Shown here: in pieces, positions 17,456-22,992 of the stretch
Numbering within the stretch: position 1 is the stretch's first letter
Layout of the letters: every line of letters begins with the position of its first letter
Source: Granulosicoccus sp.
Lineage (GTDB): Bacteria > Pseudomonadota > Gammaproteobacteria > Granulosicoccales > Granulosicoccaceae
Reading direction: 5' to 3'
Length of the DNA: 64,000 nt
NCBI GenBank assembly: GCA_013002205.1
Contig: JABDKN010000156.1
Span: 32,417 to 96,416, forward strand
Made by a program: the position numbers and the translations under genes
Notes under the pieces: generated by a model
What the model was told of the DNA's origin: nothing
Database searches by the model: none
The model's input: only the letters and a program-made list of their open reading frames with translations

Positions 17456-18838
17456 TTAAAACTGTACGCGGGGGACGATTTCGTCAAAGGTGGGAAAGCG
17501 GTCACTCAGCGGCGTTTCCGGCCAGCGTGTCGGACTGGGATCATCACCCCAGTGGAAGCCGATGCCTTCACCGAGACCGGTAGTAAAACCTGCGTCGACG
17601 TGCGCGAAGCCGCCCGAGCTTTCCATCATCAGCAGAGCTGCAGCGACGATTGCCAGGGCAGCGAGAACTGCCAGGATTATCTTGACCAGACTGTAGGGCC
17701 GCTCTCCGCGCACTTTGCCGGTACGCCCGTTGACCACGAATCGGTACGTCTTGTCACGGAACTGGAAGCCTGCAGTCCAAAGCGGCAGCAGCACATGCTT
17801 GAACGTGGTATTGCTGTGATGCGTATTGAGACTGGTGATGCGTTGCTGGTCACCACCGATGGCGCGCCGCACATCGCCCTGAATGACCTTGTCCATGGTT
17901 TGCTGCGCAATGTTGAAGCCCTCGTCCAGATCGACCTGGTAGACCTCACTGCTGAAGCCTGCAAGGTAGTCCTCGGTGTAGGGCACCAGGTTCTGCAGGT
18001 CCCAGGGAGCCAGCCAGTCAGTGATCTTGCGTGGCAGTGTCCGGGTTGCACCCACCAGCACATCATCGAAATGCCGGGAGGTGCGCCCACTGGCAGGATA
18101 CCAGCGCACCTTGGGCACTTGCCGGGTACGCGTGACCCGTCTGCCCTTTACCGTGGTGGTGTAGCGTTGCCTGACGTAGTAAACCTCGCCACGCTGTCCG
18201 CGATAGGCCGTGACGGTGTCACTGTCGTAGGTCCAGTAGGGAATGTAGACCCCGTTCAGTGACGCATCGCTACGTGCATACTTTTTCAGCGTGCCGGGTG
18301 CGAACCAGCGCTGCCTGAGCCAGCGGCGGTAGGCATCCCGCGCCTGTTCGGCAGTGATGGCAAACGGCAGCAGCCCCTTGGGCTTGAGCGGTTTCGAATG
18401 ACTGGTTTCAGTGACGACACTGGTGCCGCAAAACGGGCATTCGCCTGCATGAAGATGAGCATCCAGGGCAAACTGTGCGGCGCAATTGGGACAGCTGATG
18501 AGTTGGCTTTCGGGCGATATCGTAGCGGAGCTCTGCAATTGCTTCAGGGCCGCATGAAAATCCAGCTCGCGCAAAATCTCGCCACTGTGCTCGATCGTAT
18601 TGGCGTGTCCGCAATACTGGCACTTCAGAGAGCGGGTTCCCACCGCATAGTGCAGCATGGCGCCGCACTGTGCGCACGGAAACCGGGTCTCCGTCAGTGC
18701 ACGAGTCGTGGCTTCACCGATCCGCCTCGCATCGGATTCTTCCTCCGGCCAGTGATATTTCTCCACACCGGGCGCGTCCGCATCACGTTCAGCCAGGCGC
18801 TCATTCAGCATTTCCTGCAGTCGCTCGGCCAGGCTCAT
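17456..18838 (-). CDS. Double zinc-ribbon membrane protein (TFIIB-type zinc-ribbon, YdjG-like)
   Basis: CAQC...CQYC and CPNC...CPFC pairs; C-terminal TM (LVKIILAVLAALAIVAAALLMM); adjacent to SPFH gene. Confidence 0.78.
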   Translation of the reverse strand: MSLAERLQEMLNERLAERDADAPGVEKYHWPEEESDARRIGEATTRALTETRFPCAQCGAMLHYAVGTRSLKCQYCGHANTIEHSGEILRELDFHAALKQLQSSATISPESQLISCPNCAAQFALDAHLHAGECPFCGTSVVTETSHSKPLKPKGLLPFAITAEQARDAYRRWLRQRWFAPGTLKKYARSDASLNGVYIPYWTYDSDTVTAYRGQRGEVYYVRQRYTTTVKGRRVTRTRQVPKVRWYPASGRTSRHFDDVLVGATRTLPRKITDWLAPWDLQNLVPYTEDYLAGFSSEVYQVDLDEGFNIAQQTMDKVIQGDVRRAIGGDQQRITSLNTHHSNTTFKHVLLPLWTAGFQFRDKTYRFVVNGRTGKVRGERPYSLVKIILAVLAALAIVAAALLMMESSGGFAHVDAGFTTGLGEGIGFHWGDDPSPTRWPETPLSDRFPTFDEIVPRVQF

Positions 18839-18902
18839 GATTTACCCAGCCTGCAACCGACGGCACGGACTGGCACTGGTCCCGGCACGCGAGGGGTTGC
18901 CC

Positions 18903-20009
18903 TTACGATCCGGGGATCGGCGGCGGTGACACGCTCGACTTGCTCCAGATACCGGCAAGTGCCTCGACGGTTCCGGCTGCCTCCCATTGACTCATTTGCG
19001 GAGACCAGACCAGGGTATCCTCCTGCAAACGTCCCGATGCAGCCTGCTGCTTCATCGCCTCCACGGTAAACGGCCCATGGGCGGCACCGTCGGCCACCAG
19101 GTGAAAAGCGAGGGGGACATCACCGGGGATCGGCGGTGGAGAAGGGTGTGCACCGGGTGCCAGGCTCTCGTTCATTCGATTGGCCATGGCCAGACCGATA
19201 CCCATGCCAATTCCGTCGGAGGCACCACCTCCGGGATTACCCGCAGCTGCTTCCATGGCGACGCCTGTCTGGTACTGCAGGTAGCGATCCAGATTACCGG
19301 TAATGCCCATGCTGGTGCGTTTGTCCAGTGCCTCGGAGACCGCCGGGGGCAGTGATATATTCTCGACCAGTATGCGTGTCAGCTCCAGTCCATACTCACC
19401 GAACTCCGGTGCGATGCGACGGGTCAGGAATTCACCAAGCTGATCGTAGTTGGCGGCCATGTCCAGCACCGGAATGCCGGCACCGCCGATGATGGTGGCG
19501 AATCGTGAGGTAATGAGATTGCGTAACTGTGCACTGATTTCGTCGGTGGTGAACACGCCATCGGTTCCGACGATCTCGCGGATGAACCTGAGCGCATCGG
19601 TAATGCGTACACCGTAGGTACCAAACGCCCGTATGCGCAGACCGCCGAACTCACTGTCGCGCAGCATCAGTGGCTGCTTGGTGCCCCATTTCATGTCGGT
19701 GAATCGCCGCGCATTGCAGAAATAGACCTCGGCCTTGAACGGACTCTGGAACCCGTGGTGCCAGTTCTGCAGGGTGGTCAGAATCGGCAGGTTCCTGGTC
19801 TCCAGCTCATAGGTACCCGGACCCAGGACATCCGCAACCTGGCCTTCGTTGACGAATACGGCAAACTGCGCTTCCCTGACGATCAGCCTGGCACCGTACT
19901 TGATTTCGTTGCCATAGCGTTCGAAGCGATACACCATGGTGTTGCTGCTGTCGTCCACCCATTCGATGACATCAACGAATTCGTGAAACAGCTTGCTGAA
20001 CAGTCCCAT
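18903..20009 (-). CDS. SPFH-domain protein with C-terminal GYF_2-like domain (YdjI/virion-core-protein-like)
   Basis: MGLFSKLFHEFVDVIEW N-terminus; SPFH core; C-terminal FHLVADGAAHGPFTVEAMKQQAASGRLQEDTLVWSPQMSQW GYF_2 pattern; ATG trimmed to 20009. Confidence 0.87.
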   Translation of the reverse strand: MGLFSKLFHEFVDVIEWVDDSSNTMVYRFERYGNEIKYGARLIVREAQFAVFVNEGQVADVLGPGTYELETRNLPILTTLQNWHHGFQSPFKAEVYFCNARRFTDMKWGTKQPLMLRDSEFGGLRIRAFGTYGVRITDALRFIREIVGTDGVFTTDEISAQLRNLITSRFATIIGGAGIPVLDMAANYDQLGEFLTRRIAPEFGEYGLELTRILVENISLPPAVSEALDKRTSMGITGNLDRYLQYQTGVAMEAAAGNPGGGASDGIGMGIGLAMANRMNESLAPGAHPSPPPIPGDVPLAFHLVADGAAHGPFTVEAMKQQAASGRLQEDTLVWSPQMSQWEAAGTVEALAGIWSKSSVSPPPIPGS

Positions 20010-20010
20010 T

Positions 20011-21180
20011 TCAGGCTCCTGCCACCGGTGCACTGTGCGTGCGCGCAGAGGCGGCCTTCAGTGTCTCCTTCAACTCCTTCTCCATCGCTTCCAGTTGAGT
20101 CTCCGCTTCGGCACGTCGGCGCTTGCCCTCATCGGCAATCTGCAGGCTCTCCTCTACCGTGGCAATGAGGTTCTCGTTGGCGCGGCGCACTGCATTGACA
20201 TCGAATACGCCACGTTCCAGCTCCTCCCTGACCGTCCTGTTGGCCGTGCGCAGGTTCTCGGAGTTCTTTTCCAGCAGTTCGTTGGTCAGATCACTGGCCG
20301 CCTTGACACTCTTGGCTGCTTCGGCAGAGCGGAAGATGGTGACAGCCTGTGCAAGCTGTTGTCGCCACAAGGGAACGGTATTGACCAGCGTGGAATTGAT
20401 CTTGTTCACCAGGCCCTTGTCGTTTTCCTGGATCAGGCGAATGCTGGGCAATCCCTGCATGGCCACCTGACGCGTCAGGCGCAGGTCGTGGATACGCCGC
20501 TCCAGATCATCGCGCCCACCACGCAGATCCCGCAGCTCCTGCGCCAGCAGTACATCGTCCGCTTCGGCAGCCCTGGCCTCGGCGGCAGGGATCATCTCGG
20601 CGTCGATATACTTCAGTTTCTGCTCACCGGCCAGAATATAGGCTTCCAGGTTGTGGAAATAATCCAGGTTCGCTCCGTAGAGCTTGTCCAGTGACTTGAT
20701 GTCGCGCAGCAGCAGGGTCTTGTGCTTTTCAAGATCATCGGTCACCGCATCGACCTGCCGACGCACTCCTTCATATTGCTGTATGAACTTGGCCACCGGT
20801 GTCACACCGCCAAACAGCTTGCGGAGCAACCTGGCCAGAAACCCAGGGCGGTCATTCGGATCGAAATCCTCCACCTCGAAGCCGCGCAATACGGTCACCA
20901 TCTGGTTCAGGGAATTGCCGGCCGAGCCCAGATCCTTGTTGCGCACCCCTTCGAGCATATTGTCCGAAATGCTGGTGAGCTCCTGCTGCGCCTTGCTGCC
21001 GAAGAAGATGACCGAGTTGCTGTCCGTCAGGTCTATCTCGTCCATCAGCCGGTCGATGCGACTGCGCTCGGAAGCATCGACCTTTTCGTAAGGAACGATG
21101 TCCTCCTGTAAATCGGGTAACAGTTCGGTTCCCGGCAACAACTCTGCTTCGATCGCAACGTCTGTAGTGGTTGAGGACAT
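20011..21180 (-). CDS. Toxic anion resistance protein TelA family
   Basis: 389 aa, mostly helical; VIFFGSKAQQELTSISDNMLEGVRNKDLGSAGNSLNQMVTVLRGF is typical of TelA; aaggagaccaccc SD before ATG. Confidence 0.9.
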   Translation of the reverse strand: MSSTTTDVAIEAELLPGTELLPDLQEDIVPYEKVDASERSRIDRLMDEIDLTDSNSVIFFGSKAQQELTSISDNMLEGVRNKDLGSAGNSLNQMVTVLRGFEVEDFDPNDRPGFLARLLRKLFGGVTPVAKFIQQYEGVRRQVDAVTDDLEKHKTLLLRDIKSLDKLYGANLDYFHNLEAYILAGEQKLKYIDAEMIPAAEARAAEADDVLLAQELRDLRGGRDDLERRIHDLRLTRQVAMQGLPSIRLIQENDKGLVNKINSTLVNTVPLWRQQLAQAVTIFRSAEAAKSVKAASDLTNELLEKNSENLRTANRTVREELERGVFDVNAVRRANENLIATVEESLQIADEGKRRRAEAETQLEAMEKELKETLKAASARTHSAPVAGA

Positions 21181-21301
21181 GGGTGGTCTCCTTAATGTAA
21201 GAATCGGGCAATGCGTCTTTCAGGTCTCGTTGACGTATTGCGTAATGATCGGGGTTGGCGGGTTTCCGGGAAACATTCGCAAAAAATGCGTCCGGGCTGA
21301 G

Positions 21302-21353
21302 CGGACAATTCATGAATCACCCGGAGGGATCTGGTGATTTCATGAATTGTCCG
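21302..21353. repeat. Long hairpin between xpaC-like and telA-like genes
   Basis: cggacaattcatgaatcacc - 11-nt loop - ggtgatttcatgaattgtccg: ~20-bp stem with one bulged base; each arm contains the palindrome TTCATGAA. Confidence 0.9.
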
Positions 21354-21355
21354 GG

Positions 21356-22204
21356 TCAGGTAACACCTTCTTTTTCCATTTGCATCTGCAGGACCTCGAT
21401 GGTGACATCGAGATCTGAGAGATTGTTCTCGGCCAGCTTCATCTGCTGTTCCGTAATGACCGTTTCGATGGTAGTCAACACCCGTCTGAAATTGTCCTCG
21501 AGCGCATGCTGCTCACCTTCGGTATGCGTTCTGGCATAGCCTTCAGTCACCTGTTGTGCGCCATCCAGGTACACCTTGAGAAACTTGCGGGCGCGGCGGG
21601 CGTCCACGGGGTCGCGTTCGATGGTGTCCAGGATGTCCCGGGCTTCCTTGACGATGCGGCGCAGTCTGTCCTTGAATTCGATGTTGTGTATCCTGCGGCT
21701 GGAATTTTCGATGGCCAGCAACTTGCCTTCCGCCTCGTCCAGCAATTCGACGAGTTCTTCAGTGGTGATGCCGATGGCCGCAATGTCCGGCCCCTTGCTG
21801 TCGGAGTCGAAATCATAATACAAGTAGCACCCTACCAGGACGGCTATGGCCCACAGGACACTGTCGAACAGGTCGTACTGGTTGGGCAGCCCCAGCCAGG
21901 CCACCAGGAATATACCCGCCGCGACCAGGACGGCTCCAACCAGACGATAGCGCACGGTGCTGGCACGACGACGCAATCGACGCTTGCGCGCCTCGTTGTC
22001 CAGGCGGATGCCCTTGCGGATCAGGGTGGCGGCCGCCATGCACAGGATGAAACCGGCACCGCGTGCCATGGCTTCGACAGTGCGCCCATCCATCAATGCC
22101 AGAAAGGTTGCCGGTAGCAGCGGGAATGCCAGCAGGTAGAGCAGGAACCCACGCCACAGCACGGCTGGCCTGGACTCGGAGTCGATGCGCGTGACGGCAG
22201 CCAT
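21356..22204 (-). CDS. XpaC-like protein (5-bromo-4-chloroindolyl phosphate hydrolysis family)
   Basis: N-terminal TM segments, conserved helical C-terminal half (LRRIVKEARDILDTIERDPVDARRARKFLKVYLDGAQQVTEGYA); upstream of telA-like gene. Confidence 0.85.
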   Translation of the reverse strand: MAAVTRIDSESRPAVLWRGFLLYLLAFPLLPATFLALMDGRTVEAMARGAGFILCMAAATLIRKGIRLDNEARKRRLRRRASTVRYRLVGAVLVAAGIFLVAWLGLPNQYDLFDSVLWAIAVLVGCYLYYDFDSDSKGPDIAAIGITTEELVELLDEAEGKLLAIENSSRRIHNIEFKDRLRRIVKEARDILDTIERDPVDARRARKFLKVYLDGAQQVTEGYARTHTEGEQHALEDNFRRVLTTIETVITEQQMKLAENNLSDLDVTIEVLQMQMEKEGVT

Positions 22205-22206
22205 GT

Positions 22207-22293
22207 TCAGCCCATGACAGCCTGGCAGGAGATCATGCCCACGGATATCAGCAGAATGAAGAATCCGATGACGCGTTGCAGTGCTTTAGGCAT
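22207..22293 (-). CDS. Candidate 28-aa hydrophobic microprotein (MPKALQRVIGFFILLISVGMISCQAVMG)
   Basis: Manually translated ORF, below the ORF-track length cut-off; stop lies 2 bp before the xpaC-like ATG; single TM or lipobox-like segment; SD weak. Confidence 0.4.
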   Translation of the reverse strand: MPKALQRVIGFFILLISVGMISCQAVMG

Positions 22294-22320: not shown

Positions 22321-22992
22321 CTAGGATTTGCGTGTCAAGAGATAGACCCGTTCATCGAGTGTTTCAAGTCCTCGATCGGCCAGATTGCCCACATGTCGCG
22401 GACCACTGTAGTACGCCAGCTCCTCGATCCGGAAATCGTTACTCAGTAATTCACGCGCATTGTCATCGCTCACGGAAAACGGTGGACCCTGCATGCGCGC
22501 CTGATCGTAGCTGATCGTCAGCAACAGCGCCCGGGTATCGGCGACCAGCAGGGCGCCCAGATGGTGGGCATAGGCGTTGCGCAGCTCGCCATCCAGGGCA
22601 ATCATCGCCGCGCGATCGTAGACCCCCTGGCAGTGCGCCACCTGGGCAGGCGTGAGCGCAAAGAAGTCGCCAATCAGCAGTTCTATCCCCTGTGCCGGAC
22701 CCTGGCCACTCAGTCGCAGGAAATCACCCTCGACCGATCGTGTGCAGTCGAGGTCGTTTTCCCGAAAGAATGCCTCTCCTGCCTTCTCACTGAACTCCAC
22801 ACCCAGCACCGGATGACCTTGTCGGTGCAACCACAGCATATCCAGGGATTTGCCACACAAGGGCACGAATACCGCTGCTCCGGCGGCCAGGTCGAGCTGC
22901 TTCCAGAATTCCTGCAGCCGTTTGTTGACCGAGTCCTGGTGGAATGCGATTCTGTCCCCGGACCATTTTTCGTGCCAGTAATCTGCGTGCAT
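22321..22992 (-). CDS. tpm: Thiopurine S-methyltransferase
   Basis: MHADYWHEKWSGDRIAFHQDSVNKRLQEFW, VFVPLCGKSLDMLWL. Confidence 0.96.
   Translation of the reverse strand: MHADYWHEKWSGDRIAFHQDSVNKRLQEFWKQLDLAAGAAVFVPLCGKSLDMLWLHRQGHPVLGVEFSEKAGEAFFRENDLDCTRSVEGDFLRLSGQGPAQGIELLIGDFFALTPAQVAHCQGVYDRAAMIALDGELRNAYAHHLGALLVADTRALLLTISYDQARMQGPPFSVSDDNARELLSNDFRIEELAYYSGPRHVGNLADRGLETLDERVYLLTRKS

Follow-up and report, generated by a model that had tools for sequence, protein, structure and literature searches.

A TelA gene cluster with XpaC, SPFH and zinc-ribbon partners and a previously unlisted membrane microprotein in Granulosicoccus sp.

The window, a 64,000-nucleotide stretch of Granulosicoccus sp. 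DNA (contig JABDKN010000156.1), carries four genes on the minus strand which encode, in this order, an XpaC protein, a TelA protein, an SPFH protein and a double zinc-ribbon protein (ZnR). In profile searches, the product of xpaC (22204..21356) matched PF10112 (Halogen_Hydrol) with E=5e-27 and 95.5 bits against a cut-off of 29.8, and the product of telA (21180..20011) matched PF05816 with E=3e-111 and 372 bits, so that a PF10112 gene lies directly before a PF05816 gene. The SPFH protein (20009..18903) combines a Band_7_1 domain (E=3e-99) with a C-terminal GYF_2 domain (E=7e-15) and is YdjI-like. The ZnR protein (18838..17456) yielded no Pfam model above its cut-off and is characterized as YdjG-like by its cysteine ribbons, a long beta-strand domain and one transmembrane (TM) segment near the C-terminus. 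An earlier note on this DNA, made from the sequence alone, had described the same four genes on one strand, and Pfam matches, cysteine conservation and hydropathy bear this description out, including its XpaC, TelA and SPFH assignments and the C-terminal TM segment of ZnR.

The stop codon of telA and the start of the SPFH gene are separated by 1 bp, as already stated in the note, whereas xpaC and telA are 175 bp apart and the SPFH and ZnR genes 64 bp. Clear ribosome-binding motifs precede telA (AAGGAG) and the SPFH gene (AGGAG). The xpaC-telA intergenic region contains an inverted repeat (21304..21351) with a hairpin z-score of -6.45. Partial copies of this element occur at many other sites of the genome and identify it as a dispersed repeat, which probably does not belong to the system; thus, the reading of the hairpin as an attenuator was dropped.

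The earlier note had placed the end of the cluster at 22293. There is indeed an ATG at this position, but it belongs to a separate gene of 28 codons (22293..22207, minus strand; MPKALQRVIGFFILLISVGMISCQAVMG), the stop codon of which is located 2 nt before the xpaC ATG at 22204. The four genes of the note are therefore real, but a fifth gene was missed, which codes for a previously unlisted 28-residue single-pass membrane microprotein and is part of the same cluster. To search for such genes independently of any profile, we considered open reading frames (ORFs) of 20-80 codons with a 17-residue hydropathy above 1.6 and a stop codon between -120 and +25 nt from the start of the following gene. 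Every one of the 79 xpaC genes (79/79) has a short hydrophobic ORF of this kind directly before it, compared to 2/80 telA, 2/80 SPFH and 10/91 ZnR genes. The microprotein is conserved in Granulosicoccus, and a profile built from the Granulosicoccus sequences detected counterparts directly 5' of xpaC in other gammaproteobacteria, including loci that contain only xpaC and telA. The gammaproteobacterial consensus reads K/R-x-hGhhhLLhh(S/T)hGhhSCQAL; no Pfam family matched the microprotein. Pooled pN/pS ratios were 0.26, 0.35 and 0.29 in three groups, these values being rough since pS is near saturation, and the variable columns by codon position that go with the ratio of 0.26 amounted to 17/2/25 of 26, with second positions varying least. 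The ORF thus evolves as a coding sequence.

A lipobox-like SCQA motif is frequently found at the end of the gammaproteobacterial microprotein. Its cysteine is missing in some cases (L063, L073), which makes a peptide that spans the membrane more likely than an obligate lipoprotein. In rhodobacterial loci the microprotein has a different consensus (G-L/V-Q-K-x-A-F/Y ... G-G) and resembles the gammaproteobacterial one only in place, size and hydrophobicity, which does not imply homology. A programmed frameshift that joins the microprotein to XpaC was also considered and rejected: the offset between stop and start codon varies by locus from -101 to +4, with changes of frame, and conservation covers the microprotein frame but not the upstream portion of the frame of XpaC.

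Hydropathy analysis predicted 2-3 TM segments within residues 14-130 of the window XpaC, and mostly two or three across its family; the tail behind these segments is presumably helical and cytosolic. No TM segment was found in any of 59 TelA (59/59) or 64 SPFH (64/64) family members tested, and exactly one is present in 73 of 75 ZnR proteins, located at residues 387-405 in the window protein. The soluble TelA and SPFH proteins would thus need anchors, as is the case for YdjI of Bacillus subtilis, which has no membrane anchor and requires YdjG and YdjH for membrane localization (PMC8581546). The ZnR protein contains two CxxC...CxxC ribbons (C55, C58, C73, C76 and C116, C119, C134, C137), which are conserved over 44 relatives. 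Its structure model (pLDDT 83, pTM 0.71) shows very long beta strands at 195-230, 233-263 and 331-360 as well as one C-terminal membrane helix; a Foldseek search against the PDB gave no match at E<=0.001, with TM-scores of about 0.1.

The neighbourhood search showed that the arrangement is not confined to this genome, which supports the merged cluster suggested in the note. Of the 274 gammaproteobacterial genomes sampled, 10, from at least six families, have the order xpaC-telA-SPFH-ZnR (X-T-S-Z) on one strand (G000, G258, G145, G043, G184, G051, G190, G074, G179 and G196). Three further genomes of the class carry X-T-S; two of these have the ZnR gene on another contig and the third is represented by a contig of 3.4 kb. 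When named genomes were scanned with the alignment of the zinc-ribbon protein, 80 named loci were obtained, 58 of which show X-T-S-Z in order on one strand, many of the others being cut by contig ends; these loci include Granulosicoccaceae, Thiotrichaceae, Geminicoccaceae and many Rhodobacterales. Counted by locus, 59 of 88 have this order on one strand, and it occurs in Gamma- and Alphaproteobacteria. The four-gene order is thus shared by many bacteria, both marine and other, from two classes. At genome level, TelA scored above cut-off in 28 of the 274 gammaproteobacterial genomes and ZnR is present in 14, and TelA is found in 13 of the 14 ZnR genomes (Fisher p=8e-14, phylogeny being ignored). 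The association also holds, though less strongly, in a sample spanning the phylum, with TelA in 10 of 21 ZnR genomes (p=6e-5, likewise ignoring phylogeny). Co-occurrence of TelA and ZnR together with the ordered loci shows that the arrangement is beyond chance. One genus (g259; G288, G294, G297, G317, G325, G394, G410, G426) has ZnR and gave no TelA match in these sampled genomes.

The two halves are also found apart. X-T alone occurs at eight loci of the class, G224 has S-Z only, and in G249 the X-T and S-Z halves are 312 kb apart, so that proximity to the other half is not a strict requirement for either. S-Z pairs with no X-T match in the retrieved stretch are present on Vibrio, Comamonas and Tsukamurella plasmids and at loci of Kiritimatiellia and Pontiellaceae. 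In a TelA tree, built by a quick method and with long branches, X-T-only sequences are scattered among X-T-S-Z ones, which suggests more than one gain or loss of S-Z and a link between the halves that was repeatedly made or broken. It might therefore be that the locus comprises two independent and merely co-regulated membrane quality-control modules, namely microprotein-XpaC-TelA and SPFH-ZnR, whereby the latter would act as a chaperone-like platform on which membrane proteins are assembled, a role that has been proposed for band-7 proteins (PMC11237479), and TelA would have some other role. However, the X-T-S-Z order is kept across two classes and the gap between telA and the SPFH gene is often only 1-2 bp in gammaproteobacteria, and we regard such independence as rather unlikely.

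Several variants of the cluster were noticed. In Rhodobacterales, a DUF2927 gene (PF11150) commonly lies between telA and the SPFH gene (about 38 loci); this neighbour clustering excluded most antisense shadow ORFs. The DUF2927 protein has an N-terminus with a lipobox-like motif, and the one at L107:4582-5409 contains an HEE motif, possibly a metal site. The SPFH protein of the Comamonas plasmid (L053:6591-7688) has a C-terminal HTH_17 in place of GYF_2. On a Vibrio coralliilyticus plasmid, genes for a TIR-domain and a TRAFs-binding-domain protein (L051:1626-3870) lie a few kb away from SPFH-ZnR and on the other strand. Regarding the window cluster itself, PADLOC anti-phage models did not match XpaC, TelA or SPFH and gave only weak zinc-ribbon matches for ZnR (E>=0.008).

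XpaC followed by TelA is likewise encoded by B. subtilis xpaC-yaaN, Lactococcus lactis llmg_1115-telA1 and Listeria lmo1966-lmo1967. Compared to these Bacillota loci, SPFH and ZnR genes are joined on in the window, and the microprotein gene that precedes xpaC may be a further difference. B. subtilis pspA-ydjGHI likewise combines a TM-less SPFH protein with a membrane-anchored double zinc-ribbon protein, as found side by side in the window. The assignment of the window pair to the Ydj type, which the note had suggested, is supported through an intermediate rather than through the B. subtilis proteins themselves: an Enterococcus gallinarum plasmid locus (L055) has the order SPFH-ZnR-TPM, the Firmicutes pattern of the ydj operon (PMC11237479), and its ZnR and SPFH proteins match those of the window with single-pair E-values of 2e-34, over nearly the whole length, and 2e-12, respectively. 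In contrast to pspA-ydjGHI, the window cluster has TelA and XpaC instead of PspA and the TPM-domain protein YdjH; no TPM-domain gene was found in or next to it, whereas the Enterococcus operon has one. Moreover, the window SPFH protein has a C-terminal GYF_2 domain where YdjI has a zinc ribbon/zinc finger. PSP-linked band-7/ZnR operons, too, bring band-7 and ZnR partners together at the membrane, but the survey describing them starts from PspA and its main text does not contain the words TelA, XpaC or toxic anion (PMC11237479). A literature search returned no paper that brings TelA or toxic anion resistance together with SPFH, or all three of TelA, XpaC and SPFH, subscription papers being mostly outside its scope.

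As the note had stated, there is no PspA gene in the window; PspA/IM30 (PF04012) had no match in the whole genome either (4.46 Mb, 98.7% complete, with a single TelA), while positive control genomes were matched, and none was found in two sampled members of the same family. From the absence of PspA in the window, the note had considered that TelA may take the PspA-like cytosolic role, with the SPFH protein as membrane scaffold. TelA would then be a membrane-binding helical polymer which stands in for PspA in lineages lacking it. The TelA model is all-helical with helices of up to 80 residues, which would fit, but it is of low confidence (pLDDT 68), and its best 50 Foldseek matches in the PDB include no PspA/ESCRT-III fold and comprise only generic helical bundles and alpha-pore toxins. 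Furthermore, PspA and TelA are positively associated among the 274 gammaproteobacteria (odds ratio 4.6, p=4e-4, ignoring phylogeny), the opposite sign to that of mutual exclusion, which was thus rejected, and 7 of the 13 X-T-S genomes have a PspA match above cut-off, some of them weak or partial. Replacement of PspA by TelA as a rule is not supported, and the stand-in role appears very unlikely.

The name of TelA might also point to a tellurite/selenite (toxic oxyanion) resistance operon. A thiopurine S-methyltransferase gene (TPMT; 22321..22992, minus strand) is located 27 bp upstream of the microprotein gene; its product passes the NCBIfam equivalog TIGR03840 (TMPT_Se_Te), and 11 related loci of the Granulosicoccaceae type, besides the window, have a TPMT as well. 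In addition, KlaB from the KlaABC (kilA) tellurite resistance determinant of IncP plasmids is a TelA-family protein. However, the other lineages examined showed no TPMT close to the cluster. KlaB shares only about 28% identity and has KlaA and KlaC as its neighbours, with no adjacent XpaC, SPFH or ZnR, and the window cluster shows neither these neighbours nor close KlaB similarity; in the TelA tree (quick method, long branches), cluster and X-T-only TelA form a group separate from both plasmid KlaB and a second TelA group of gammaproteobacteria. A Listeria telA mutant, as cited in PMC12791056, was 4-fold more sensitive to nisin and 2-fold more sensitive to tellurite. Oxyanion resistance is thus an improbable function of the cluster. 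The second TelA group (L021-L028) is distant, with long branches, and showed no XpaC, SPFH or ZnR match in the short stretches covered.

The known expression of the relatives points in another direction. Both xpaC-yaaN and pspA-ydjGHI belong to the sigma-W regulon of B. subtilis (PMC3498285), L. lactis xpaC and telA1 are upregulated during membrane-protein overproduction linked to CesSR (PMC3139573), and Listeria lmo1966-1967 is upregulated with the bacteriocin garvicin KS (PMC12791056). Envelope-stress expression is thus a feature of the Gram-positive XpaC-TelA relatives and lends support by analogy to the envelope-stress theme of the note. Upstream of the window cluster no promoter-like site was found and no linked regulator gene was seen, so stress induction here would follow from analogy. 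Taken together, the stress data on these relatives and the anchoring of YdjI suggest an envelope-protection complex with two anchored halves. We consider it somewhat probable that the gene products form a complex which is made either constitutively or upon stress and protects the inner membrane, and that the cluster is a proteobacterial relative of the xpaC-yaaN and pspA-ydjGHI modules that lacks PspA. In such a complex, XpaC would anchor the soluble helical TelA at the membrane, with the microprotein probably being a small membrane subunit of XpaC. ZnR would span the membrane once, expose its ribbons to the cytosol and anchor the TM-less SPFH protein, whose oligomer would form a scaffold. The halves could then meet at the membrane, where TelA would sit on the SPFH scaffold or next to it, and under envelope stress the complex may keep the bilayer intact or maintain membrane-protein assembly. 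The partner assignments, like the inducer and the output, are part of this proposal.

A more far-reaching version, which we put forward tentatively and hold to be possible rather than probable, is that of a widespread, so far undescribed and PspA-independent five-protein membrane guard in Proteobacteria. Here, a single-pass microprotein of about 25-60 residues, obligately paired with XpaC, would sense or transmit the state of the envelope and load TelA onto the ZnR-anchored SPFH scaffold. The TelA and XpaC families are common, bear misleading names and lack a mechanism, and the microprotein is so short that ordinary annotation can miss its gene. The stable linkage to a YdjI/YdjG-type pair and the constant xpaC-adjacent microprotein provide a defined partner set for testing, and the cluster shows that an envelope system centred on SPFH does not require a linked PspA.
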